A stretch of DNA of 33,335 nucleotides, from positions 1 through 33,335 of the forward strand of contig WQXS01000022.1 in NCBI GenBank assembly GCA_009784725.1, given 5' to 3'. The notes below the pieces were generated by a model. The model was not told the origin of the DNA. It saw only the letters and a program-made list of their open reading frames with translations, and did not search any database. Of this stretch, positions 4,663 to 32,391 are shown in pieces. This DNA is from Oscillospiraceae bacterium (GTDB lineage: Bacteria > Bacillota > Clostridia > Oscillospirales > Oscillospiraceae). The translations under genes were made by a program, and so were the position numbers. The stretch's first letter is position 1, and every line of letters begins with the position of its first letter.

Positions 4663-4698
4663 CATACAAGAATCTTATATTTCAGGATGGAAGATTAT

Positions 4699-5766
4699 AT
4701 GGAATACATTTCAGCAAAAGAGGCAGCAATTCAATGGGGTATTTCTCAGCGCAGAGTTGCTGTATTTTGTTCCGAGGACAGGATTGAGGGTGTAAAACTA
4801 ATGGGCAAGATGTGGTGGATTCCTAAAGATGCACGCAAGCCTGATGATGCAAGGAGTTTGCGGCATCAGCCAAAAACTCCGGCGAAAGTAAAACCTTTTA
4901 TAAAATGGGCTGGTGGAAAAGCTCAAATACTAGAAAATATTAGATTGAAGTATCCAAAAGATTTAGGTAACAATATAAATAAATATGCTGAACCATTTAT
5001 TGGTGGTGGGGCAGTCTTGTTCGATATACTCAGCAATTATAAAATGTCCAAAGTTTATATGAGCGATATAAATCACGAGTTAATACACACATATACTACC
5101 ATTCGAGATAGTATTGATGAACTCATTGTTTTGTTAAAATCTATGGAGATGAAATACCTTCCTGTTAGTGTAGAAAGAAGGAAAAACCTGTATTATAGTA
5201 ATCGCAGTAGATACAATAACTTAATTCATGAAAAAATAAAAACGCCGGAGTTAGCAGCATTATTTATTTTCTTAAATAGAACCTGCTTCAATGGCTTATA
5301 CAGAGTCAATTCAAAAGGTGAGTTCAACGTTCCTCAAGGTGACTATAAAAATCCCTGTATATGTGATGAAGATAATTTGACTGCTGTGTCGAAAGTTCTT
5401 AAAAATGTCCAAATTAAATGTTGTGATTACAAGAAGTCTAAAAGCTTTATTGATAAAAACACTTTCGCATACTTTGATCCACCATACCGTCCATTGACTG
5501 AATCGTCCAGCTTCACCTCCTACACCCAAGACAGATTCGGAGATAAAGAACAAATAGAGCTTGCACAGTTTATAGATATTTTATCAGATACCGGCGCATT
5601 TGTTGTAGCAAGTAATAGCGACCCAACAAATATAAATAAGGAAGACTCATTCTTTGACAAGTTATATGAAAAACATAAAATACTCCGCATAAGTGCTGCA
5701 AGAAATATTAACTCCGCAGCAAATAAGCGGGGGAAAATAAATGAGCTTCTAATAGCAAGTTACTGA
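4699..5766 (+). CDS. Dam/D12-class DNA adenine N6-methyltransferase with N-terminal HTH domain
   Basis: The ATG at 4699 is preferred, because AGGATGGAAG lies a few bases before it; an in-frame ATG at 4687 has no ribosome binding site. Residues 1-50 (EYISAKEAAIQWGISQRRVA...) form a small helix-turn-helix domain with the MKMWWIPKDARKP-type ending seen in Clostridia DNA-binding domains. After a short linker comes the methyltransferase: KPFIKWAGGKAQIL (SAM-binding motif I of D12 enzymes), FIGGGAVLFD, TCFNGLYRVN, and the catalytic FDPPYRPL at about residue 260. The D12 class includes Dam and DpnII-type enzymes, many of which act on GATC, but the target cannot be read from sequence alone. The gene heads a restriction-modification cluster. 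The HTH may bind the repeat in its own promoter region (inference). Confidence 0.85.
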   Translation: MEYISAKEAAIQWGISQRRVAVFCSEDRIEGVKLMGKMWWIPKDARKPDDARSLRHQPKTPAKVKPFIKWAGGKAQILENIRLKYPKDLGNNINKYAEPFIGGGAVLFDILSNYKMSKVYMSDINHELIHTYTTIRDSIDELIVLLKSMEMKYLPVSVERRKNLYYSNRSRYNNLIHEKIKTPELAALFIFLNRTCFNGLYRVNSKGEFNVPQGDYKNPCICDEDNLTAVSKVLKNVQIKCCDYKKSKSFIDKNTFAYFDPPYRPLTESSSFTSYTQDRFGDKEQIELAQFIDILSDTGAFVVASNSDPTNINKEDSFFDKLYEKHKILRISAARNINSAANKRGKINELLIASY

Positions 5767-5883
5767 GAGTAAATAAATTCGTGATTTTTATTAATTGGTT
5801 ATTAAAATTTTAACTAGGAATCGATGATATGGACTCCAGTGTTCTAAAAAACGTTTTTAGTTTATCTTTATGGAGGAAATAAA

Positions 5884-6414
5884 ATGATAAAAGGTGGTAA
5901 AGGTGGAGTAAACACAAAAACCGGTCTTGAGTTTGAGGGAAAAACTGACTTATCTACATTTTTGTCCAAACAGAAAGGATATAATATAAATAATGAAAAA
6001 GTTTTTTATTTAGGAGAAGAAGTAGCAAGGGTATTAAAACCATACGGAAAGTTCTATCAATTTCTTATGGAATACGGCATAAAGTGGGACACAATAATTT
6101 CAAAACAGATTCGTCCAGACGATTGTATATATGTTATTATAAATAACACACTTTTTATAATTGAATGCAAATACCAAAACGTTGCAGGCTCAGTTGATGA
6201 AAAATTACAAACGTGCGACTTTAAGAAAAAACAATATCAAAAATTATTGTCACGTGCAAATATTGATGTCGAATATATTTATTTATTAAACGATTGGTTC
6301 AAAAAACCGGAGTATAAAGATGTCCTAGATTATATACTTAGTGTTGGTTGTCATTTTTATTTTGAATACATACCTCTTTCAAAACTAGGATTACCAATAC
6401 CATCGGAGGATTGA
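5884..6414 (+). CDS. PD-(D/E)XK restriction endonuclease, likely partner of the Dam-class methylase
   Basis: A 176-residue AT-rich gene with a strong GGAGG site 8 bases before its ATG. The start MIKGGKGGVNTKTGLEFE is a pattern I associate with small type II restriction enzymes and related nucleases. The fold signature is clear: P78-D79, a beta strand (CIYVIINNTLFII) and E94-C95-K96, giving PD-X14-ECK, with a Q98 just after, as in many restriction enzymes. It would cut unmethylated DNA at the site protected by a methylase of the island. It follows the methylase by 117 bases, in which a small hairpin (CTAAAAA/TTTTTAG, 5844-5860) sits between the two genes. The cleavage site is not readable from sequence. 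Confidence in nuclease is higher than in the exact partner. Confidence 0.75.
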   Translation: MIKGGKGGVNTKTGLEFEGKTDLSTFLSKQKGYNINNEKVFYLGEEVARVLKPYGKFYQFLMEYGIKWDTIISKQIRPDDCIYVIINNTLFIIECKYQNVAGSVDEKLQTCDFKKKQYQKLLSRANIDVEYIYLLNDWFKKPEYKDVLDYILSVGCHFYFEYIPLSKLGLPIPSED

Positions 6415-6548
6415 TTAGTAAGCGAAAAATTTTTCTACATTCTTTTTTCATTTTACCATCGTAATTAATAATTTTTTTATATAATCATCTATGATTTCAC
6501 ATTTTCATTCATCATTTTGAAGAAGTGTGATTTTTCCTATATGATGAA

Positions 6549-6647
6549 ATGCTTGACAAGTGGGAGTATAATGTTCTTCCATACTTAAAACAAGGTGAAG
6601 AAAAGGGAATAACTTATGCTTACACACCACGAACCAGACAGTTTTGA
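6549..6647 (+). pseudogene. short open frame just upstream of the second methylase; possible frameshifted N-terminus
   Basis: A frame open from 6531, with ATG at 6549 and TGA at 6645, encodes protein-like sequence (LDKWEYNVLPYLKQG, then EEKGITYAY) before running across the start of the methyltransferase gene in another frame. One indel around 6613-6625 would join it to the methylase. It has no good ribosome binding site. It could equally be chance. Confidence 0.3.
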
Positions 6648-7350
6648 ACTGGAGGAAAATTCTTTATGGTCATTCCCTGAGCGTGGTTGCTGGGCAACGC
6701 ATGATGCCAAATACAGGGGTAATTGGTCGCCATATGTACCACGTAATCTCATACTAAGATATACTACAGAAAAAGAACTTATACTAGATCAATTTGCCGG
6801 TGGCGGAACTACATTGATAGAAGCAAAACTTTTAAATAGAAATATAATTGGTGTTGATATAAATCCAACATCACTGGAACGGTGCAGGAAAAAAACTACA
6901 TTTATGTGTGATAATGCGGGAAGTGTTTATATTAAAAATGGTGATGCCAGGAAACTTGACTTTATTCCTGACAAAAGCATAGATTTCATTTGCACACACC
7001 CGCCTTATGCAAACATAGTAAAGTACAGCGATGGTATTAGTGGAGATATATCTAATTTCGGTCTTTGTGATTTTTTAACAGAAATGAGACCGGTAGCCGA
7101 TGAGTGTTATCGTGTTTTAAAACCTAAAAAGTATTGCGCAATTCTCATGGGAGATACAAGAAAAGGCGGGCATATTATTACTTTAAGTTTTGACGTTATG
7201 AAAATTTTTAAAGAATCTGGGTTTAATGTAAAAGAAATAGTTATTAAAGAACAGCACAATTGCAAGTATACTGACCGATGGAAGAAAAAAAGTTATATAA
7301 ATAACTTTTTATTAATAGCTCATGAATATTTGTTTGTGTTTCAAAAATAA
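6616..7350 (+). CDS. DNA N4-cytosine/N6-adenine methyltransferase with THPPY catalytic motif
   Basis: A 244-residue SAM-dependent DNA methyltransferase. Motif I is LDQFAGGGTTLIEA (residues 57-70), and IIGVDIN (77-83) supplies the acidic residue that holds SAM. The catalytic loop is T127-H128-P-P-Y131 instead of the usual TSPPY. The N-terminal stretch WATHDAKYRGNWSPYVPRN is typical of a subgroup of type II and orphan methylases in which the Arg-Gly-Asn-Trp-Ser-Pro-Tyr block precedes motif I. The start has AAAGGG eight bases upstream, but an extra N-terminal part may lie in another frame just upstream. It is the third gene of the restriction-modification island. Either it protects a second site or a strand of an asymmetric site, or it is left over from another system. 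The base it methylates cannot be told here. Confidence 0.75.
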   Translation: MLTHHEPDSFELEENSLWSFPERGCWATHDAKYRGNWSPYVPRNLILRYTTEKELILDQFAGGGTTLIEAKLLNRNIIGVDINPTSLERCRKKTTFMCDNAGSVYIKNGDARKLDFIPDKSIDFICTHPPYANIVKYSDGISGDISNFGLCDFLTEMRPVADECYRVLKPKKYCAILMGDTRKGGHIITLSFDVMKIFKESGFNVKEIVIKEQHNCKYTDRWKKKSYINNFLLIAHEYLFVFQK

Positions 7351-21370: not shown

Positions 21371-24217
21371 TTGAAAGAACAGGATAATAAGTGTGCAATA
21401 CAATGTGAACGTATATGCCGCAGTGAGTCCATGCTGAGCAATCTGCCCGGAATGATTTATCAGTGCCTGCATGACCCGCCCGATTTTACATATACCTTTG
21501 TCAGCGAAGGCAGCACAGAGCTTATGGGTTACACCCCCGAGGAGCTTATTAATAATACCGCACCTAAAATGATTGATATGGTGCATCCCGAGGATGTCGA
21601 TTCGGTACTGAAAATTAATGAAGATACCCTCTCTCACGGCAAACCCCTTGAAACATCCTTTCGTATTATTACAAAAGACGGTTCTGTCAAGTGGATTCTG
21701 GAACGCTGCCGTATTGTCGAGTTTTATCCCGATAATACACCAAAGCTGCTCGAAGGTTTTTATACCGATATAACAAATCAACGCCGCCTTGAAGCAGCCG
21801 AGCTTGCAAACCGCGCAAAATCCGAATTTCTCGCAAACATGAGCCACGAAATAAGAACTCCGATGAATGCAATCCTCGGCATGACAGCCCTCGCAAAACG
21901 CAACTATACCCGCGAGTTTGTAATGGAATACCTCGACAACATTACAAATGCCGGAAATCAGCTTCTTACAATTATTAATGATATCCTTGATTTTTCCAAA
22001 GTCGAAGCAGGCGTCGTAGATCTTATGCCCGAAACTTATGATGTCAACTCTATGATAAACGATATCGTAACAATGATACATGTCAGAATCGGGAAAAAAC
22101 CCCTCGATTTCATCATTGATGACGACCCGCTTTTACCCGGCAAGCTGATCGGCGATATGGTAAGAATCAAACAGATAATAATCAATCTGCTTTCAAACGC
22201 CGTAAAATTCACAAGTGAGGGATATATAATCTTTTCAATCACCGGTGAAAAAAGCGAAGACGAAAAAACATACAAATTAAGCATATCAATAACCGACACG
22301 GGAATCGGCTTAAAAGAAGATGATATAACATCACTGTTTGACAGCTTCTCTCAGTTTGACACACGAAAAAACAGAAACATCGAAGGAACAGGGCTTGGCC
22401 TTGCAATTAGTAAAAATCTTATTGAACTGATGGGCGGTGAAATCTCCGTTAAAAGCAAATACGGTGAAGGCAGCTGCTTCTCATTCACAATAACGCAAAA
22501 TATTCCCGAAGATGCGGAAACAAAACTCTATCACAGTGATGAGCACTGCAAGGTTGCGATATGGGAACGAAATAAAGTTAAATCACAGATTCTCGTTAAC
22601 AAAATAAGCAAAATGGGTATTCCCTGCGAGGTTATAAATAACACCGAGTTTATTGATAATTACACACATATTTTCTTCGACTCATATAAATTTTACGATA
22701 TGATAAAAAACCCCTCTCTTGGAGTAAGGCTTATTGCACTCACCCGGGGTCTTACGGATAATGAAAAAGTCCCGTCAAATATGATTATTATTAATACCCC
22801 GCTCACAACCGTTATGGCACACAGCCTGCTTCGCAACATTGAAGCCGATGGTACCGACCGGAGTGAAAACGTTGAATTTACATTAAAAATCAATAATGCA
22901 AAAATTCTTGTTGTTGACGATATCGATATCAACCTGTTTATATCCGAGGAAATACTGGTTTCTTACGGAGCTTCTGTCGAGCTTGCCGATTCGGGAGCAA
23001 AGTCCATCGAAATGATAAAAGATAACGACTATGACATCGTATTTATGGACCACATGATGCCCGAAATGGACGGAGTTGATGTAACAAAGTATATCCGCGC
23101 ACTTCCCGAAGAAAAATATAAGAAGCTGCCGATAGTCGCACTTACAGCGAATGTTGTCGGTGATGTCCGGGATATATTAATTGAGAGCGGAATGAATGAC
23201 TTTTTGTCAAAACCCCTTGACCCTAAAGAGATGGAAAGAGTCCTCAAGGAATTTCTGCCGAAAGAAAAATGGAGCTTTACACAACGTTTTGTTCACCACG
23301 AGGTTCTGCCCGAAAATAAAGGTTCAAAAATCCTTATAGTAGATGATTCACACTTAAATCAGGAGATACTTTCACGTATTTTAAGAGATGACTACTTTTT
23401 AACCTTTGCATCCTCCGGTATTGAAGCACTTGAAAAAATTGAAAATGAAATTCCAGATTTAATTTTGCTTGATATTGTTATGCCGGGCATGGACGGGTAT
23501 GAGGTCCTGACAAAACTTAAAGAGCATGTTATTAACAGCTCAATTCCTGTAATTGTAATTACCGGAATGTCAAGAGCGGAAGACGAAGTAAAAGGATTAC
23601 TGCTCGGTGCCGTGGATTATATAACAAAACCGTTCCACGAGGTTGTTGTAAAAGCAAGAGTTGATACACATATTAAAATTGCGTCCCAGCTTAGAATGAT
23701 TGAACAGCTCAGCTCAGTGGATTCAATAACAAATATATTCAACAGAAGACAGTTTGTTGATTTGTTGATGCACGAGTGGGATTTTGCAATGCGCGAGAAA
23801 TCCCCGATAAGCATTCTGATGGTTGATGTTGACCATTTCAAAGACTATAACAATGCATACGGAGAGAAAAAAGGAGATATTGCACTTAAAATTATCGCCG
23901 AAACAATAAAATCAATGCTGCACCTTCCCGATTATATAGCAGCACGCTGGGACGGCGAAAAATTCTCGGTGCTTCTTCCGAACACAGACTTGCTCGGAGC
24001 GGTTAAAATTGCAGAGTCCATAAGAAAAACAATTGAAACCGTCGCCGCACTCACCGAAGATGACTCAACGCACCGCCTGACGGTAAGCATAGGCGTAACC
24101 TTCATGACCCCGTCCTCCGAAAATAAAATCGAAGATATTATCAGACGGGCAGACATAGAACTCAAAAAAGCAAAGGACTCGGGACGAAACAGGATAAGCT
24201 ACAGCCTAAGTCAGTAA
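21371..24217 (+). CDS. hybrid sensor histidine kinase: PAS, HisKA, HATPase, REC, REC, degenerate GGDEF
   Basis: A 948-residue protein starting with TTG right after a strong AAGGAGG site, 37 bases after the amidase gene. A PAS domain with a PAC tail (about 15-135, FTYTFVSEGSTELMGYTPEE) leads to HisKA with phospho-acceptor H159 ([12 protein letters not shown]). The ATPase has N-box [16 protein letters not shown] and GTGLGLAISK. A degenerate domain of about 120 residues precedes REC1 (D560 in IVFMDHMMPEMDG) and REC2 (D701 in LILLDIVMPGMDG). The C-terminal GGDEF domain (about 775-945) keeps DVDHFKDYNN but reads R859-W-D-G-E-K-F where RYGGEEF is usual, and the inhibitory RxxD site is HLPD. No membrane helix is present, so input is cytosolic. 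It likely passes phosphate through its own receivers; cyclase activity is doubtful. Confidence 0.9.
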   Translation: MKEQDNKCAIQCERICRSESMLSNLPGMIYQCLHDPPDFTYTFVSEGSTELMGYTPEELINNTAPKMIDMVHPEDVDSVLKINEDTLSHGKPLETSFRIITKDGSVKWILERCRIVEFYPDNTPKLLEGFYTDITNQRRLEAAELANRAKSEFLANMSHEIRTPMNAILGMTALAKRNYTREFVMEYLDNITNAGNQLLTIINDILDFSKVEAGVVDLMPETYDVNSMINDIVTMIHVRIGKKPLDFIIDDDPLLPGKLIGDMVRIKQIIINLLSNAVKFTSEGYIIFSITGEKSEDEKTYKLSISITDTGIGLKEDDITSLFDSFSQFDTRKNRNIEGTGLGLAISKNLIELMGGEISVKSKYGEGSCFSFTITQNIPEDAETKLYHSDEHCKVAIWERNKVKSQILVNKISKMGIPCEVINNTEFIDNYTHIFFDSYKFYDMIKNPSLGVRLIALTRGLTDNEKVPSNMIIINTPLTTVMAHSLLRNIEADGTDRSENVEFTLKINNAKILVVDDIDINLFISEEILVSYGASVELADSGAKSIEMIKDNDYDIVFMDHMMPEMDGVDVTKYIRALPEEKYKKLPIVALTANVVGDVRDILIESGMNDFLSKPLDPKEMERVLKEFLPKEKWSFTQRFVHHEVLPENKGSKILIVDDSHLNQEILSRILRDDYFLTFASSGIEALEKIENEIPDLILLDIVMPGMDGYEVLTKLKEHVINSSIPVIVITGMSRAEDEVKGLLLGAVDYITKPFHEVVVKARVDTHIKIASQLRMIEQLSSVDSITNIFNRRQFVDLLMHEWDFAMREKSPISILMVDVDHFKDYNNAYGEKKGDIALKIIAETIKSMLHLPDYIAARWDGEKFSVLLPNTDLLGAVKIAESIRKTIETVAALTEDDSTHRLTVSIGVTFMTPSSENKIEDIIRRADIELKKAKDSGRNRISYSLSQ

Positions 24218-24318: not shown

Positions 24319-25149
24319 ATGATTAACAGAGAACGTTTATATGCAATTGCGGAGCTTGCCGTTTCCGAAGGGCTTGATAAACTGTCTGACAGTCTTCTCG
24401 GAATGTATATTGATTCGGTAAACTCTTTTATAGACCATTTCCCTATACAATCTCAGAAACTGCAGGATGCAGTTGATGATCAGGATAGTGCAAGCGTTAT
24501 TTCAGGAATATATGTCCCGCTGTGTGATACCTTGATTAGGTTATACGCAAGCGGTCTTGTAAGTGAATACCGTCCGAAGTTCGACAAGCTAATTTCCGAA
24601 CCCGATATTGATTATGACGCTCTTGAAGCAGTTGTCGAAAACTTTATTCAAGCTGTTTCAGCTCTTTCCATTGATATACAAATGGCAATTCGTCCCAACG
24701 CACCTCCGGCACACCGGCGTTATTTCCCACCGGTTGCAAATGCTACCCCCGATACGGGAAATAAACCAAAAGCAAAACAAAGTGACAACAAAACGCCAAA
24801 AAAAATACTTGCCGTCGATAATGCAATAATGTACTTAAATACATTAACCAAAATGCTCGCAAATACATCATACGAGCTTTATACAACAACTTCATGTTCG
24901 GAAGCACTGGATTTTATCAAAAACGAAAACCCTGCACTTCTTCTGCTTGACATTGAAATGCCGGAAATGAACGGCTATGAGCTTGCCCGAAAAATCAAAG
25001 ACAGCGGTTGCGATGCACCGATTATATTCATAACCGCAAACTCCGCAAGATCATACGTTGACAAAGCAATCGAAGTAGGCGCAGAAGCACTCCTCATGAA
25101 ACCCCTCCGCAGCAACCAGCTATTGTCGAAAATAAGCGAGTTTATATAG
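24319..25149 (+). CDS. receiver-domain protein with helical N-terminal domain
   Basis: A 276-residue protein. The first 125 residues (LAVSEGLDKLSDSLLGMYIDSVNSFIDHF...) are predicted helical and do not match a family I can name; they loosely recall Hpt-like or partner-binding bundles, but there is no HxxKG motif. A Pro- and Lys-rich linker follows, then a receiver (about 155-276): KKILAVDNAIMYLN, phospho-acceptor D211 in LLLLDIEMPEMNG, IIFITANS and the conserved Lys in LLMKPL. The usual acidic pair is D-N rather than D-D, so Mg2+ binding may be weaker. There is no DNA-binding output. It lies 101 bases after the hybrid kinase gene, and its last 8 bases overlap the convergent kinase gene. Confidence 0.75.
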   Translation: MINRERLYAIAELAVSEGLDKLSDSLLGMYIDSVNSFIDHFPIQSQKLQDAVDDQDSASVISGIYVPLCDTLIRLYASGLVSEYRPKFDKLISEPDIDYDALEAVVENFIQAVSALSIDIQMAIRPNAPPAHRRYFPPVANATPDTGNKPKAKQSDNKTPKKILAVDNAIMYLNTLTKMLANTSYELYTTTSCSEALDFIKNENPALLLLDIEMPEMNGYELARKIKDSGCDAPIIFITANSARSYVDKAIEVGAEALLMKPLRSNQLLSKISEFI

Positions 25150-28132
25150 AATTTTTTACCAGCCATTTACGTACGTTTTCAACAAGGATTTCCGAATCCT
25201 TGATAAAATCGTCGTTTTGCTTAAGTATCGAAGAAATATCGCCGTTAAGCGCCATTCTTTCAAGTTTTTTCGCTTTTACTGAAAGGCTTTTTGCGCCGAT
25301 GGTTGCACTTATGCCTTTCATTGTATGAATATCAATTGTATAGCTTTCAATATTATCTTCGTTTACATCACGAAGCTTATCCACTTCTATTAGCGTATTT
25401 TCCGCAAAAGACTGCAAAATCCCGATGTACATATCCATATCTTCTTCATACAAAGAAAGCCCAAGAGTTGCATTTACACCGGGTATATCAACATCATCCA
25501 CCGTCAAACCGGTGGTTGATTCATTTTGCACGGAGACATCGGACTCCTGCTGTGTATCATAAGAATCCCGGTCACCCTTCATAATCCAGCGCCGTACAAC
25601 AGTATCAAGCTTTGTTACATTAATCGGTTTTGATACGAATGCATGAAAACCTTCATCCAGAAACAGTCTTTCATTTCCTGCAACAGCGTTGGCAGTTAAT
25701 GCAATTATCGGTATTTTCTCCGTATAATCATTACCGATTTTACGAATCCGGTGTGCCGTTTCAATCCCGTCCATTCCCGGCATCATATGGTCCATAAAAA
25801 TCGCATCATAAACAGGCTCACCTTGTTTCATGCGGTCAATTGCATCATGCCCGTTTAGTACACAATCAACATTCATTTTATATTTCTTTAATAAACCCTT
25901 TGCAACATCAAGGTTGGTTGGAGCATCATCAACTACAAGAACATTTGCCCAACTCAAATCAGGCCGTGAAAACTGTCTTTCAGACTTGCTCTTACTGTCA
26001 TCATACTTAAAACTTCTTAAATCATCCAATGTTTTGTCATCAATTATTTCACCACTTACATAACCTTGCCTGATACTGAACTTGAATGTCGAACCTTTAC
26101 CGTATTCACTTTCGACTACAATGATGCCACCCATCAACTCAACAAAACCCTTTGCAATCGCAAGCCCAAGCCCCGTTCCTTCAATCATGCGGTTAGCACG
26201 TGTATCAACCTGATTGTAATTGCTGAACAGCTTTTCTAAATCCTCGGGGCGCATACCTATGCCCGTGTCATTAACCGAAAACGTCAACCACACATCGTTA
26301 AACTCTCCCCGCTCACATTTAACACTTAGTGTCACAGTACCTTTGTGCGTATACTTAAATGCATTGCTTAAAAGATTAATCAATATTTGCTTTACACGCA
26401 AATCATCTCCGCTTAAAAATGCATATACCTCACCGCTGATATCAATCGAAAATGTAATAGGCTTATCACCGCTCCACATGATACTGAGCATTATTACGTC
26501 ATTAAGTAAACTCGCAAGCTCATATTGCGCAGGCAGCAATGTGAATTTACCTGCTTCAATTTTTGAAATGTCCAAAATATCGTTAATAAGACTGACCAGG
26601 GTATTTCCTGCTGTATTGATTTTTTGCAGGTAGTCTGTCTCATCAACCGAAGGGTTGTCACCCTCTAAAAGCAGTTCGGTTAAACCCACAATTACATTTA
26701 TCGGAGTTCTTATTTCGTGACTCATATTTGCAAGAAAATCGCTCTTGGCACGGCTTGCGTTTTGCGCTTCATCCCTTGCTTTTTGCCTTTCCGAGCTGGA
26801 TATCGCAAGAGCCATTAAATCCGATAATGATGAGACAAAGCTTTGCTCTTCAATTGTCCATTCACGGCTTTCCGGAAACTCCTCAGTGCAATCCTGATCG
26901 GCGCAAACCATTCCGATTGTTTTACCGTCAAGACGGACAGGCGCTTCAAGCATAGCACATAAGTTCTCATTATAGTCACCTTCAATTTCGTGCGATTCAT
27001 GGACATTACTTGTGATAATAAGCCTTTCCGTTATAAGCATGTTTTTATAGACCTCACGGTCAATAAGGCTAAAATCCTCCTCTACGACAATATCATTTTC
27101 AACCTTGTCATAACACGACATATTTATAAGTGTATCTTCATTTTTATTTAAGCCCCAAATACTAATACGGCTTACATTCAAAACATTACACGCTTCTTTT
27201 GCAATATAATCTGCTGCAGCCTTTAAGTCTCCCGCAGAAATAGTAGGTGATTTTGTTATCTCGGCAAGAGTACTGCTCAGCTCTTTTGCTCTTTCAACGA
27301 AGTAACGCATCTTATTTTCCATTTTTACACGTTCTTCGATTTTCTTAATTAATTTTACCTGTTCTCTTAAGTCCCTTGTATAACCGACCACAACATCATC
27401 ATTTCTGTATTTGGCGCGGACAAGAATAATCTCTGCAGGTATCGGTTCTAAGGTATCGGGTATTTGATGCATCCAGTTAAACTTACAATAACCTTCTTCA
27501 AACGCTTGGGAAACAAGCCTTATCGCTTTTGTATCCGATCGCTCTCCGTCCGGTTGATATTCGGGAGAGCATTCACCCAGAAAACGCATTGCATACTCAC
27601 GCTTGTTCTTAAATCCGTAAAGCTTGATTCCCGCTTCATTGCAATCGATTGTATTTAGATACTTATCCCAAATCTGCGTACATAAAGGAGATGTATCAAG
27701 CATAATCGTCAAACGTTCATTCGTTTCCTGTATCAATTTTTCTCTTGAAAGGGCAATATGTAAATCAACACGTTTAACAAGCAACTCATTTGTAATTGGT
27801 TTTAATATGTAATCAACCGCTCCGAGGCTAAGTCCTATAATCTCGCTATCTCTGTCGACCTTTGCGGTCAAAAATATTACGGGAATATTTTTGGTTTTTT
27901 CATCACTTTTTAACTTCTTGATAATTTCATATCCACCCATTTCGGGCATCTCAACATCTAAAAGAATCAATGACGGGATAACCACCTCAAGAAGTTCAAA
28001 CAGCTTCTCTCCCGACGGAGCAGTAAACAAACTGTACTTCTCGGATAGGTTATTCCTTGCAACAGTAAGATTCGTAATATCATCATCAACCATGATAATA
28101 GTCTCACGGTTACTTTCCATTACAACCCCCAT
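25142..28132 (-). CDS. hybrid sensor histidine kinase: REC, PAS, GAF, HisKA, HATPase, REC, Hpt
   Basis: A 996-residue soluble kinase. REC1 (about 8-125, D59 in LILLDVEMPEMGG) is followed by a PAS-like domain (CTQIWDKYLNTIDCNEAGIKLYGF), a GAF domain (about 295-445, with NVSRISIWGLN and CADQDCTEEFPES) and HisKA with H472 ([12 protein letters not shown]). The ATPase shows NLLSNAFKYT, DTGIGM and GTGLGLAIAK; REC2 has D781 (DAIFMDHMMPGMDG), and the Hpt domain has H936 (IDIHTMKGISATIG). It has every step of a His-Asp-His relay in one chain, plus an extra input receiver. The start may be the ATG at 28132 or the one at 28120, the latter with GGGGG ahead. It is the third gene of the operon headed by the hydrogenase-like sensor kinase, 12 bases after the HD-GYP gene. 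Confidence 0.9.
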   Translation of the reverse strand: MGVVMESNRETIIMVDDDITNLTVARNNLSEKYSLFTAPSGEKLFELLEVVIPSLILLDVEMPEMGGYEIIKKLKSDEKTKNIPVIFLTAKVDRDSEIIGLSLGAVDYILKPITNELLVKRVDLHIALSREKLIQETNERLTIMLDTSPLCTQIWDKYLNTIDCNEAGIKLYGFKNKREYAMRFLGECSPEYQPDGERSDTKAIRLVSQAFEEGYCKFNWMHQIPDTLEPIPAEIILVRAKYRNDDVVVGYTRDLREQVKLIKKIEERVKMENKMRYFVERAKELSSTLAEITKSPTISAGDLKAAADYIAKEACNVLNVSRISIWGLNKNEDTLINMSCYDKVENDIVVEEDFSLIDREVYKNMLITERLIITSNVHESHEIEGDYNENLCAMLEAPVRLDGKTIGMVCADQDCTEEFPESREWTIEEQSFVSSLSDLMALAISSSERQKARDEAQNASRAKSDFLANMSHEIRTPINVIVGLTELLLEGDNPSVDETDYLQKINTAGNTLVSLINDILDISKIEAGKFTLLPAQYELASLLNDVIMLSIMWSGDKPITFSIDISGEVYAFLSGDDLRVKQILINLLSNAFKYTHKGTVTLSVKCERGEFNDVWLTFSVNDTGIGMRPEDLEKLFSNYNQVDTRANRMIEGTGLGLAIAKGFVELMGGIIVVESEYGKGSTFKFSIRQGYVSGEIIDDKTLDDLRSFKYDDSKSKSERQFSRPDLSWANVLVVDDAPTNLDVAKGLLKKYKMNVDCVLNGHDAIDRMKQGEPVYDAIFMDHMMPGMDGIETAHRIRKIGNDYTEKIPIIALTANAVAGNERLFLDEGFHAFVSKPINVTKLDTVVRRWIMKGDRDSYDTQQESDVSVQNESTTGLTVDDVDIPGVNATLGLSLYEEDMDMYIGILQSFAENTLIEVDKLRDVNEDNIESYTIDIHTMKGISATIGAKSLSVKAKKLERMALNGDISSILKQNDDFIKDSEILVENVRKWLVKNSI

Positions 28133-28144
28133 AATTCCAGACTC

Positions 28145-29191
28145 TTATTCAGCTTCAAACAACTCATGAATATCAAGAAACACATCGACAATTTGCGGAT
28201 CGAAATGATTGCCTTTTCCCTCAGTAATTATCTCAACCGCTCTTTCGTGTGTAAACGGCGGTTTATAAGGACGTTCCGATACAAGCGCATCGTACACATC
28301 AACAAGTGCCATGACACGGCCGTGCAAGGGAATATCCGTGCCTTTCAGACCGCGCGGATACCCTGAGCCGTCCCATTTTTCATGATGGCTGCCTGCACAT
28401 AATTTCGCATTCTGCATAAATTCATCATCGCCCGATTCGGTAATAATACTTCCGATTATTGCCTCCCCCTCCAGAGCGCGCTTTTGCATATCGGAATATT
28501 CACCCTTGGTAAGCTTTCCGGGCTTGTTTAAAATAACATCCGAAACAACTATTTTTCCTATATCGTGCAGGCGTGACGATGAAACCATGACATCAATGTT
28601 CCAGTTTGACATCTCGTCGGCATATACACCGCGCTTTGTCATGGCATTTAATAAAACCTTCATGTTTTTTGATGTTTGTTCGGCATGCTTACCCGTCAGC
28701 TTGTCCCGGTTTTCCACCATGTTTGCCAGAACCGACATCATGCTGTTTTGCAGTCTGAGAAGTTTTTCCGTTCGCTCAAGCAAAGCTTCTGTTTTTTCAT
28801 TGAGTGCCCGCATGTGATTAACAAGGCTCACTTGATTTCGTACTCTCAGCTTAACGATATCAGTTATAAACGGCTTCGGTATATAGTCTGCAGCGCCCAG
28901 GGTCAAACCTTTTTTCTCAGCATTTGAGCCGTCAAGTCCCGTTATAAATATAACCGGAATTGATTTTGTCGCTTCGGTTTTTTTAAGCTCCGCAATTACT
29001 TCATATCCGTCCATTTCCGGCATAAGAACGTCGAGCAATATTACATCGGGTAAATCTTCTTTTGCAACCATAATTGCATCCAAACCGTTTTTGGCAACGA
29101 AAATTTCATAATCCGGGTTCAAAATACCCGTAAGAGCAATTATGTTTGCACTTTCGTCATCTACGACAAGAACCGTATTCTTTTTATCCAT
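28145..29191 (-). CDS. REC-HD-GYP response regulator, probable c-di-GMP phosphodiesterase
   Basis: A 348-residue protein. The receiver (about 5-120) has acidic pair D-D in [10 protein letters not shown], phospho-acceptor D54 in [13 protein letters not shown] and the Lys in YIPKPF. A short coiled coil ([21 protein letters not shown]) connects to an HD-GYP domain with H209-D210 in [19 protein letters not shown] and G277-Y278-P279, then [15 protein letters not shown]. The metal ligands and the GYP motif are intact, so hydrolysis of c-di-GMP to pGpG or GMP is expected, under control of phosphorylation. It overlaps the stop of the hydrogenase-kinase gene by 8 bases, which implies translational coupling and makes it the likely phospho-acceptor for that kinase. 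Confidence 0.9.
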
Positions 29192-32171
29192 CGTTTTTTT
29201 CCAAACTTTCTTTTATTCTATAGAGCTCATCAAGCGCTTTTTTAAACTCAAAATCCTCCAAATACCGTACAATATCATCCGAGTTCGGTATAGAACGGAT
29301 TTCATCAAACATATTCATATATTCCGATTTTCTTTTAAGCAGTATAGGCTCAAGTCTTCCTATTATTTCCAATGTTTCTTCAAAACCGGCATTTTCACCG
29401 GTATTGTCTGATTGAACTTCGGATAGCAGCGGCTTTAATTTTTCAAGAACTGTGTGCAATGATGACTCAAGAAGCTCCATCTGTGCAAGTGTAACGAAGT
29501 TTACATTATTTCTTAAATTTCCTTCAACAACTTGCGCTGCTTCCTGAAGTGCTTTTTCACCAATTTGTCCCGCATTGCCTTTTAATGTGTGTGCCAGCCT
29601 GTGTGCAAGCTTTATATCATCGGTTTCCAGAGCTTGTTTAATGTTTGTAAAGGTAGCTTGATTGTTTTTCACAAAATAAATCTTAAGCTGTTGTAAGGTT
29701 TCTTCTTCCTGTGCAGACAGATGCCCGATATCTACAGCAACATAACTTGCAACAGGAAGATGCTTGATTAAACATCTCCACAGCTCCTGCGATGTAAACG
29801 GTTTACCGAGGTAATCACGCATCCCGCTTTGCTTGTAGAGTTCCAAATCATTGGACATAATATTTGCCGTGAGTGCAACTATCGGTGTTTTTGTTTTTAA
29901 TTCTGTGATTTTAGCCGCAGCTTCCAGCCCGTCCATCACCGGCATATGTATATCCATAAAAATCAGATCAAACGGCTTTACGCCTCCCTGCATACGTTCA
30001 GTGACGATATCAACGCCCTCTTTTCCGTTTTTTGCCACTATGGTTTTTAATCCGACACGTGATAAATGTTCGCAAATTACCTGCTGATTCAAGCCGTTAT
30101 CCTCGCAAATCAATATCTCACCGTTAAATATAGGTTTTTCAATATCATTTAAAAGCAGTTTCTTTGACGGTTCATCGGTAGAATCTTCAACTAAATCAAA
30201 TGTCAGGTTAAAACTGAACCGGCTGCCGGCTTCAGGTTCACTTTCCACTTCCAGTGAACCGCCCATCAATTCAATGATATTTTTTGTAATGGGGAGTCCA
30301 AGTCCCGTACCGCCGAACCTACGCGTAATACTGTCGTCCGCTTGCTTGAACGGCTCAAATATCTGCGCTACCTGCTCTGCACTCATGCCTATACCGCTGT
30401 CCTTCACCTCGAAACTGATTTTTACATGTTCTTCCTCCAAATCCGTAACCGAAGTCAGAAGCTTAACCGTTCCTTTGTTTGTGAATTTTACAGCGTTTGA
30501 AAGCAGATTCATAAATACCTGACGTATCCTGACAGGATCACCAAGCAGCTTTTTTCCGGGAAACGGTTCAATATAACAATATAAAGAAAGCCCTTTTTCA
30601 ATGAACTTCGGCATTATTGCCGACCGGCATTGGTCGATAACATCCTGCAGATCAAAGGGTATAGTCTCAAGCGTTATATTCCCGGACTCGATTTTTGCGC
30701 TGTCCAAAATATCATTGATTATATTCAATAACCATTTTGCATTATCGCTTATATAGTTAAGATATTGCTTTGTCTTTAGCGAAACATCGTCATCGAGTGC
30801 AAGCTCCGAAAACCCTATTATACTGTTCATCGGTGTTCTGATTTCATGGCTCATGTTGGCAAGGAATGCGGATTTTGATTTGTTCGCAGCTTCGGCTATC
30901 TCACGTTCCTGGATGACACTCTCATGTTCACTTTGAATACAATTGCTCGGTAAATCATAACCAAGTGCTATTCTGCATGCCATGGCATAACATGTTTCAG
31001 AACCGCAGGCACCGCAGTCAAACACTCTTTTATCATCTGTCAATTTATTGATAGATGCATACGCTTCTTCTATTTGTGCATCTGTCAAATCCGTGCGTAC
31101 AATAGTTTTGGGAACGTATTTCCTGATAAAATCATCAAGCCGTAAGGTATTGTCAAACTCCCGATAGAATGAATCATAACTTGCCTTATCCATGCTCTGT
31201 ATAACGGACTTACGGTTTTCATCCATAATACGGCCCGCTTCGTACCTGCTGTGAGTGTGAGCACATCCGGTACCGATATTACAGCCGTCGGGACAGTTAA
31301 GTACATCGAAAACGGCAGGAAGATCACTCTCTTTTTGCTTTGAAAATAAACTGAGTGCATCATAAACAACTTCTTGACCCTCTTCCCGGTCTATCCGCAG
31401 TTGTTTCCCGAAATAAAACTCAATATTTTCCTTCAATCCGCTCGGCATCGAATAAATACGTCCTAGTGCAGATTCATTATGGTCAAATCCGGAGGGTTTT
31501 GCAGGTAGCTTTATTTTGTTTTTTACTATATATTCATAGAATTTTTTCAGTGTGATGTTATAACCGACATATCCGGTATCTTCAAATTCATGTGATTTTG
31601 CAACACATGGCGATATTGCCGCAATGCTGTCATCTATATTTTTATATTCTTTCATATAAATGGCAGTACAGAGCATCGGGCTTTGTATTGGCGATAAGTA
31701 TTGCAACAAGTCATTTTCATACAGCAGAATATAATTCACTATCGCCGGGCAAGGTTGGGTTATGAGTGATTTTGGCTTGTTATTCTGTATATGCCTTATA
31801 TGCGCCCATGTGCATATATCTGCACCCATTGATACGTCGTATATTTTATTAACACCCATTTTGCGAAGCCATGCAAGTACCCTGCCGTACGGTAGCTCAC
31901 CCGTACGTATTGCCGGTGCTACGATTATAGAAATCGGGATTCCTTTTTTAAGGTCGCGTAAAAAACGCTCTGTGTCGTCCTCATAATCCCTGACATCATG
32001 GTGACATGCATAAATACAAGCCCCGCAGGCAATACACCGCTCATGATCGATTTTTACCTTTATCTGATCATTACTCATATAAGTAATGCTTGCCCCCTCC
32101 ATCGGACAAACACGCACACACTTGTTACATCCGACACAGGAAGATTCATTATTAGTAATTACTTTCTTCAT
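29184..32171 (-). CDS. [FeFe]-hydrogenase-like sensor fused to hybrid histidine kinase with REC and Hpt
   Basis: A 995-residue protein. Two 4Fe-4S ferredoxin sites come first (C12/15/18/22 and C46/49/52/56). The [FeFe]-hydrogenase core (about 75-350) then shows all three H-cluster loops: TQPC141PA, SPC189VAKSHE, and NC293PDGC297NIGTGC. A third Fe-S motif follows (C386, C389, C394, C411; [10 protein letters not shown]). HisKA has H442 ([12 protein letters not shown]), and the ATPase, a REC with D740 and an Hpt with H861 (AHTLKGNAG) complete it, plus a helical tail of about 70 residues. The usual proton-relay Cys next to the L1 ligand is Pro here, as expected for a sensor rather than a fast enzyme. 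The input is probably H2 or redox state; the output passes to the REC-HD-GYP protein next to it. Soluble, cytosolic. Confidence 0.85.
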
Positions 32172-32206: not shown

Positions 32207-32235
32207 ACTATACTATATTTCCCATAATATGACAA
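32207..32235 (-). promoter_or_regulatory. promoter of the hydrogenase-kinase operon
   Basis: On the minus strand, TTGTCA (32230-32235), a 17-base spacer and TATAGT (32207-32212) lie 36 bases before the ATG. The -35 box adjoins the outer arm of a long inverted repeat. Confidence 0.6.
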
Positions 32236-32246
32236 ATGACAACTCT
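32221..32246 (-). repeat. inverted repeat copy flanking the GlsB-like gene, left
   Basis: On the minus strand this reads AGAGTTGTCATTTGT, then four unmatched bases and TTATGG. A matching copy in the opposite direction lies at 32754-32779 on the other side of the GlsB-like gene (20 of 25 positions alike). Confidence 0.45.
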
Positions 32247-32294
32247 GCAATTTTAGGGAACTTTTTAAAGTTCCTTGAAATCAAGAGTTGTCAT
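32236..32294. other. nested inverted repeat (long hairpin)
   Basis: Outer arms ATGACAACTCT (32236-32246) and AGAGTTGTCAT (32284-32294) match perfectly over 11 bases. Inside, GGAACTTT and AAAGTTCC pair around a 2-base gap (about 32257-32274). Partial pairing of the bases between the arms would give one long imperfect stem. It lies upstream of the promoter of the hydrogenase-kinase operon and could be an operator, a small RNA or a mobile remnant. Confidence 0.5.
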
Positions 32295-32325
32295 ATGCTC
32301 GTTACTGTATTTTGCTATATTAAAA

Positions 32326-32369
32326 TGCACCTCCAATAGTTAGTTTTTATGTCTAACTTTTGGGGTGCA
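32326..32369. mobile_element. paired insertion-sequence-like ends (terminator-like hairpin or IS/MITE remnant)
   Basis: Arms of about 18 bases (TGCACCTCCAATAGTTAG and CTAACTTTTGGGGTGCA) pair with one mismatch and one bulge around a 9-base loop. Read on the minus strand, GTGCACCCCAAAAGTTAGAC resembles terminal repeats of IS3-type elements that I know from Bacillota. No transposase is present. It also sits where a terminator of the GlsB-like gene would be. Confidence 0.4.
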
Positions 32370-32391
32370 CTTCATTATCACCAAATGTGAA

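Follow-up and report, generated by a model that had tools for sequence, protein, structure and literature searches.

Sensory [FeFe]-hydrogenases are divided in HydDB (2016) into putative histidine-kinase-linked (C1), chemotactic (C2), and phosphatase-linked (C3) groups (PMC5037454), and group C1 genes were later reported beside a kinase gene in Cloacimonadota (2021, PMC8542988). The sensory role of groups C and D is called putative, with direct physiological evidence wanting (PMC8924675), and the two characterized sensory enzymes are described as having been studied with the H-cluster in place. The protein discussed here is a 995-residue hybrid histidine kinase from an Oscillospiraceae bacterium (GCA_009784725.1) that carries a hydrogenase domain (H-domain); it is encoded on contig WQXS01000022.1, and the whole stretch analyzed, positions 1 to 33,335, is referred to below as the window. 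Hydrogen sensors of termite-gut treponemes, the subject of a 2012 paper by Ballor, Paulsen, and Leadbetter in Microb Ecol, reportedly join an H-domain to phosphorelay or methylation outputs, as happens in the family of the window protein, and that work is said not to have taken up the question of maturases. No description of sensory hydrogenases without maturases was found in the open literature (a weak negative, covering open papers only), and a sensor family that does not track the maturases is apparently undescribed there. The explanation we favor, at about even confidence, is that the window protein works as a soluble hybrid histidine kinase that senses redox state, with no more than a conventional Fe-S cluster at its H-site, and that it feeds the turnover of cyclic di-GMP (c-di-GMP).

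A sequence-only reading of this DNA had described ferredoxin sites, an H-domain with four cysteines, a further Fe-S motif, and a relay of kinase, receiver (REC), and Hpt domains in one chain, and Pfam and the sequence agree on this anatomy, whose parts are as follows.

29184..32171, minus strand: hybrid histidine kinase gene with H-domain, 995 residues
31992..32141, minus strand: 2x[4Fe-4S] ferredoxin domain, residues 11-60, with C12, C15, C18, C22, C46, C49, C52, and C56 (Pfam Fer4_7)
31272..31916, minus strand: [FeFe]-hydrogenase H-domain, residues 86-300 (Pfam PF02906, alignments, model fold)
30936..31019, minus strand: C-terminal Fe-S motif Cx2Cx4Cx16C, C386/C389/C394/C411 (from the sequence; PF04060 below its cut-off)
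30681..30875, minus strand: HisKA, residues 433-497, phospho-accepting H442
30201..30542, minus strand: HATPase_c, residues 544-657
29778..30116, minus strand: REC, residues 686-798, D740
29454..29678, minus strand: Hpt, residues 832-906, H861

The H-domain scores 90.3 bits against PF02906 (gathering score 22.1), all four cubane ligands of the H-cluster are present (C141, C189, C293, and C297), and the hydrogenase fold is recovered in the predicted model. The hybrid kinase relay is complete, with HisKA, HATPase_c, REC, and Hpt carrying H442, D740, and H861, and no PAS domain was found in the protein by Pfam at E values up to 1.

Likened to the HydDB groups by its domains, the window protein resembles C1 in that its H-domain is tied to a histidine kinase (fused HisKA and HATPase_c), while two sisters, L050 in the same genome and L070 in a close relative, resemble C2 in having a methyl-accepting output. 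It departs from C1 in that the fused kinase is of the hybrid type, complete with receiver and Hpt, and in that no maturase was found in the genome. The hybrid-Hpt fusion together with an HD-GYP gene is a variant of the listed histidine-kinase-linked class, and the verdict of the sequence-only reading that such an arrangement is little described was too strong in view of these HydDB groups (PMC5037454) and of the title of the 2012 treponeme paper. As in TamHydS (group D, or M2e), there are two N-terminal [4Fe-4S] motifs, serine in place of M353, leucine in place of M497, loss of C299, and a C-terminal Cx2Cx4Cx16C, a spacing reported for group C and D sensory enzymes (PMC8163306). Unlike TamHydS, whose group D relay uses Glu252 and Glu289, the window sensor has Leu and Asp at these positions, and it is fused to a kinase, whereas TamHydS is described as having no fused kinase and sitting upstream of a bifurcating hydrogenase. 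The protein of this genome that is more like TamHydS is a short sensor of 449 residues (L007, the same as L053:15217-16563), which keeps the SGGE letters and lies near HydABC, about 4.6 kb from HydA; upstream of it is, by eye, an ATPase gene of anti-sigma kinase type. TmHydS (group C, or M2f) shares the ferredoxin motifs, the H-domain, and the C-terminal Fe-S motif, which is there followed by a PAS domain (PMC8163306); a PAS domain is present in the genus relative L054.

The maturases HydE, HydF, and HydG were sought with model searches, and none scored above cut-off in the sensor's own genome, a 99-contig draft that is 98.41% complete. The best scores there, 19 bits for HydE and 86 bits for HydF, lie well short of cut-off and are what other radical-SAM and GTPase genes would be expected to give, and HydG gave no match, while the same models placed Thermotoga maritima above cut-off for each of the three. 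The same absence holds in 17 of the 19 genomes of the genus, the own genome included; G004 and G016 carry all three maturases, and G015 has a HydE-like match of 157 bits, below cut-off. Were one linked locus lost through incompleteness, independently in each genome, this pattern would have a chance of about 10^-18. The sequence-only reading had proposed H2 sensing by an H-cluster, with a lack of hydEFG as a sign to the contrary, and that lack, in the own genome and in 17 of the 19, means that the proposal is not supported as worded. Among 60 relatives including the own genome, HydG was found in 18, HydF in 18, HydE in 20, all three in 17, and none in 40; 37 of the 57 relatives bearing PF02906 have no maturase, as do 17 of the 31 that are at least 95% complete with at most 5% contamination.

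Beyond these relatives, contigs were scanned with the family alignment, which confirmed at least 577 relatives among at least 591 pattern matches, and the best 80 were kept. Fifty of the 80 fetched loci were tested for HydG and HydF (45 of the first 49 and five others), and at least two of them, L083 and L113, are the genus members G004 and G009, which are also counted in the genus. HydG was above cut-off in 24 of these 50 carrier genomes and HydF in 25, and neither was above it in 23. An even sample of the class (391 genomes, sensor called at E values up to 1e-60) contained the sensor in 19 genomes, with HydG in 11 of the 19 carriers versus 229 of the 372 others (Fisher p 0.81), where only the best four candidates per genome and HydG alone were scored, so that carriers may be undercounted, where absence of HydG means not being among the 240 positives, and where the two 391-genome sets were matched by handle. 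There is thus no association of sensor and maturase at class level as judged by HydG in these 391 genomes. Of the eight carriers lacking HydG, five are 99-100% complete, the own genome is 98.4% complete, and two others stand at 91% and 73%; one of them, G425, is a single-contig genome that is 99% complete. On a 75-row sensor tree (a quick tree with branch support from the Shimodaira-Hasegawa-like approximate likelihood ratio test, SH-aLRT, only, and with low support at 30 of its 72 inner branches, which are drawn open), the maturase label requires 21 changes against a shuffled mean of 21.2, with 278 of 500 shuffles as low, and maturase presence is scattered on the tree as at random.

The H-domains of 73 sensors were compared, 44 whose host genome lacks HydF and HydG, 26 whose host genome has them, and three of unclear status (L073, L087, and L109) that are omitted from the residue counts. 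The 44 maturase-less rows comprise 28 from the contig scan (23 genomes) and 16 from the own genus, L089, L095, L097, and L099 took their status from another locus sharing the bin name, and among the 26 maturase-bearing rows is L104, which has its HydG divided between two contigs and scoring below cut-off. Invariant in 44 of 44 and 26 of 26 are the eight ferredoxin cysteines, the cubane ligands C141, C189, C293, and C297, and C386, C389, and C394, with a single gap in each group at C411; the patterns used to fetch L069-L148 contained the L3 cysteines or GADI..W, so that conservation of L3 is partly built in for those loci, and the genus sensors were gathered by profile search. A loss of H-cluster cysteines in close homologues, which would have spoken against a hydrogenase-type cofactor, did not occur, and the lack of decay where maturases are absent is evidence for a retained cluster. 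The residues near the site behave alike in the two groups: S187 stands at the M353 position (Ser or Thr across the rows) and L291 at that of M497. The C299 position is P140 in the window sensor, as the earlier reading had it when it described the proton-relay Cys as replaced by Pro, and is Pro in 41 of 44 and 25 of 26 rows and Cys in none. The column of TamHydS Glu252, placed by way of the SGG-E letters taken from primers of PMC10407848, is L246 in the window sensor and Leu, Phe, or Ile in 44 of 44 and 26 of 26, the Glu being kept only in the short sensors L053 and L067; TamHydS variants at E252 retain less than 0.01% of H2 oxidation (PMC10407848). Judged by alignment, the first residue is replaced in both known proton relays (C299 and Glu252), and a sensor rather than a catalytic role, as first suggested, is upheld.

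The gene lies at the head of a group of signaling genes on the minus strand, with two further features just upstream of it.

28145..29191, minus strand: REC-HD-GYP response regulator, likely a c-di-GMP phosphodiesterase by its HDIGK and GSGYP motifs (Response_reg, HD_5)
25142..28132, minus strand: second hybrid kinase, REC-GAF-HisKA-HATPase-REC-Hpt, starting 12 bp downstream of the REC-HD-GYP gene
32207..32235, minus strand: promoter-like site TTGTCA-17-TATAGT, about 35 bp before the ATG, 10 of 12 matches
32233..32297, no strand: nested imperfect palindrome with 25- and 15-nt arms, overlapping the promoter-like site

HD and GYP motifs are the marks of HD-GYP c-di-GMP phosphodiesterases, and the REC-HD-GYP gene overlaps the sensor gene by 8 bp. 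The second hybrid kinase, whose Hpt match is below cut-off (18.1 versus 24.6 bits), is probably the third gene of the operon. The coupling of sensor and HD-GYP gene noted at the outset extends to the family: an HD-GYP gene adjoins 9 of 35 kinase-type sensor genes versus 1 of 63 without a detected kinase, in a count that left out the window locus, the duplicates L083 and L113, and the one gene in 99 without a flank, whose rows are not independent, and in which two of the nine kinase genes have the neighbor on the opposite strand. The sole non-kinase gene with such a neighbor, L134, is cut by a contig end, and its output domain is not visible. In L069, the closest orthologue among the matches listed (73% identity in the H part and 64% in the kinase part), the HD-GYP protein directly after the sensor is 77% identical to that of the window over 344 residues and continues into a second receiver-like stretch, and the two genes overlap by a few bases at most. 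The promoter-like signal is weak, with 32 such sites in an 8-kb stretch versus 23.1 expected. The palindrome is possibly an operator or a hairpin; apart from L004, which is this same DNA, none of the fetched loci contains an exact copy of its 11-nt arm or 18-nt core. At about 32300-32372, immediately before the operon, the letters resemble one end of an IS3-type element together with the beginning of that element's first gene. Elsewhere in the window, a PAS-kinase-REC-REC-GGDEF protein (21371-24217) is a further c-di-GMP gene near the operon, and two DNA-methylase-like genes flank a small gene at 4687-7350, by eye possibly a restriction-type cluster.

These results suggest how the window sensor may work. 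Electrons from a low-potential pool (ferredoxin-like donors) would flow by way of the two N-terminal [4Fe-4S] clusters to the H-site, where a conventional Fe-S cluster, bound by C141/C189/C293/C297, is most likely all that is present, because HydE, HydF, and HydG, the makers of the [2Fe] part, were not found. The redox state of the Cx2Cx4Cx16C cluster, directly before the kinase helix, would then switch autophosphorylation of H442, and phosphate would pass from H442 to D740, to H861, and on to the receiver of the overlapping REC-HD-GYP protein, probably also to the second hybrid kinase; altered c-di-GMP hydrolysis may in turn shift the cell between motile and attached behavior. The domains, the conserved residues, the gene order, the lack of a maturase above cut-off, and the non-association of family and maturases were computed, while from these we infer the cofactor content, the electron donor, the direction of the switch, the path of phosphate, and the c-di-GMP output. 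A parallel is offered by the eukaryotic Nar1/IOP1, likewise a hydrogenase-like protein that keeps a cubane site where maturases are lacking; in yeast and man it is believed to carry a [4Fe-4S] cluster where a hydrogenase has its H-cluster (PMC12621388). Unlike the window sensor, Nar1/IOP1 is an Fe-S trafficking factor without a kinase and with one ferredoxin-type site.

Several observations weigh against this redox-sensor explanation. About half of the carriers do have maturases, and the class sample, with its four candidates per genome and HydG alone, may have missed carriers. P86, P165, K192, and E195 of the sensor align with P231, P324, K358, and E361 of CpI, which we take to be pocket residues facing the [2Fe] site of real hydrogenases, and they are invariant alike in maturase-less and maturase-bearing rows; as far as the residues tell, the active-site pocket has not decayed in maturase-less carriers, a pattern that, by itself, tells against the [2Fe] site simply having been lost. 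The second relay residue of group D, Glu289, is changed only to Asp (D289 here, Asp in 69 of 70 rows), and TamHydS E289D keeps 70% of H2 evolution with H2 oxidation at most 3% (PMC10407848); the nearby E248, just two positions away from the missing Glu, could take its place in the proton relay. Relatives with a group-A-like HydA (>280 bits) lack any maturase in 35 of 54 cases, 16 of the 35 being at least 95% complete, and such retention of HydA without maturases means that maturation in this group may not be understood. Two sensory enzymes, RaHydS and TsHfsB, have reported support for a sensory function (PMC8924675). In a true H2 sensor, a complete H-cluster would be reduced by H2 and the reduced Fe-S chain would set the kinase. 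Termite guts are rich in H2, and many of the nearest relatives are metagenome-assembled genomes (MAGs) whose sample codes we take to denote termite gut, an origin that suits H2 sensing.

We regard the H2 sensor as a tentative and rather unlikely alternative, which would have the maturases missing from the assemblies, lost very recently, or carried on an unbinned replicon. The ligands and pocket residues are all kept, two of the 19 genus members (G004 and G016) have hydE, hydF, and hydG, and the replacements of M353 and M497 and the Cx2Cx4Cx16C motif are those of TamHydS, which interconverts H+ and H2 once given a synthetic [2Fe] site (PMC8163306); group C enzymes are moreover described as thought to respond to H2 (PMC12578642). 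Against the H2 sensor stand the 17 of 19 genus genomes lacking any maturase above cut-off, a single-contig genome that holds another family member and no HydG, the lack of association with HydG in the class sample, the scattered label on the tree, and the replaced first residue of both proton relays.

It is improbable that a different cofactor occupies the H-site, for instance an ordinary [2Fe-2S] cluster within the cavity, so that the sensor would read O2, NO, or iron-sulfur status. Nar1 has been reported with an unexpected [2Fe-2S] cluster at an unknown site, in line with a cavity able to take cofactors, and hydrogenase activity was reported for Nar1 homologues made in E. coli (PMC12621388), so that such a cavity may still accept a cofactor; but 16 cysteines of the window sensor already account for four [4Fe-4S] clusters. 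Highly improbable, in our view, is an H-cluster matured without the known HydE, HydF, and HydG that would serve the sensors and the group-A-like HydA alike: the maturase-less HydA relatives and the uneroded active-site residues of the sensors would be explained, but a site with only Fe-S is simpler, and such a HydA may have another job. That the H-domain is a cluster-less relic in this lineage, with the kinase driven otherwise, agrees with the lack of a maturase above cut-off in the own genome and is scarcely credible, as the 12 ferredoxin and H-domain cluster cysteines stand in 44 of 44 maturase-less rows and one genome holds five long H-domain sensors with different outputs.

Seven PF02906 genes are present in the own genome, namely HydA (L001), the short sensor L007, and five long sensors including that of the window, the other four being L049, L051, and L052 with kinases and L050 with its methyl-accepting output. 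The group-A-like HydA (G000:C9:27102-27953) was considered as a case of H-cluster ligand loss for its TSCSPGW letters, and this was dropped, since HydA1 of A. woodii has the same letters (7q4v, a structure titled as an electron bifurcating Fe-Fe hydrogenase). The TSCSPGW form of motif L1 occurs in 26 of the 30 HydA genes read (among L001 and L012-L040), with and without genomic maturases, and the variant is mentioned in an eLife paper on Melainabacteria.

The 75-row tree spans Bacillota, Fibrobacterota, Spirochaetota, Acidobacteriota, Pseudomonadota, Thermodesulfobacteriota, Synergistota, Cloacimonadota, and Actinomycetota, with phylum labels of MAGs that may carry binning errors. Outputs in the ten sensors run through Pfam include MCPsignal, PAS-kinase-REC, kinase-REC-Hpt, and GGDEF, and motility and c-di-GMP are a common theme among them. 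In an Oxalobacter record the H-domain protein is fused to a GGDEF diguanylate cyclase domain (L107:5923-8328), and in an Acidobacteriota MAG one frame holds a kinase-REC, an H-domain, a second kinase, and two RECs (L106:3-4271). The H-domains of the window and L069 group with those of L070, the methyl-accepting protein, and of L071, a protein of 572 residues without a kinase match and without a Pfam run (SH-aLRT 99). The kinase part has its nearest match in L069 (64%, and 63% for a neighboring gene there), followed by a neighboring gene of L114 (54%), a neighboring gene and the sensor of L112 (54% and 52%), and L052 of the own genome (52%), whose H part is only 48% identical to that of the window. 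The tree position and these identities together are most simply explained by a fusion between a chemotaxis-type H-domain and a kinase-REC-Hpt module that came from another clade.

If this widespread family indeed keeps its cysteines independently of the maturases, many of its proteins would be mislabeled as H2 sensors, and surveys of gut metagenomes would overcount H2-sensing genes. There is a slim chance that the many relatives with intact H-domain sensors and group-A-like HydA but no HydEFG assemble a working H-site along an unknown maturation route or around an unknown cofactor, and the sensor family would then be a marker of a second way to make a hydrogen-sensing center. The HD-GYP, GGDEF, and chemotaxis outputs suggest that bacteria of several phyla adjust motility and attachment to their low-potential redox state (or to H2).

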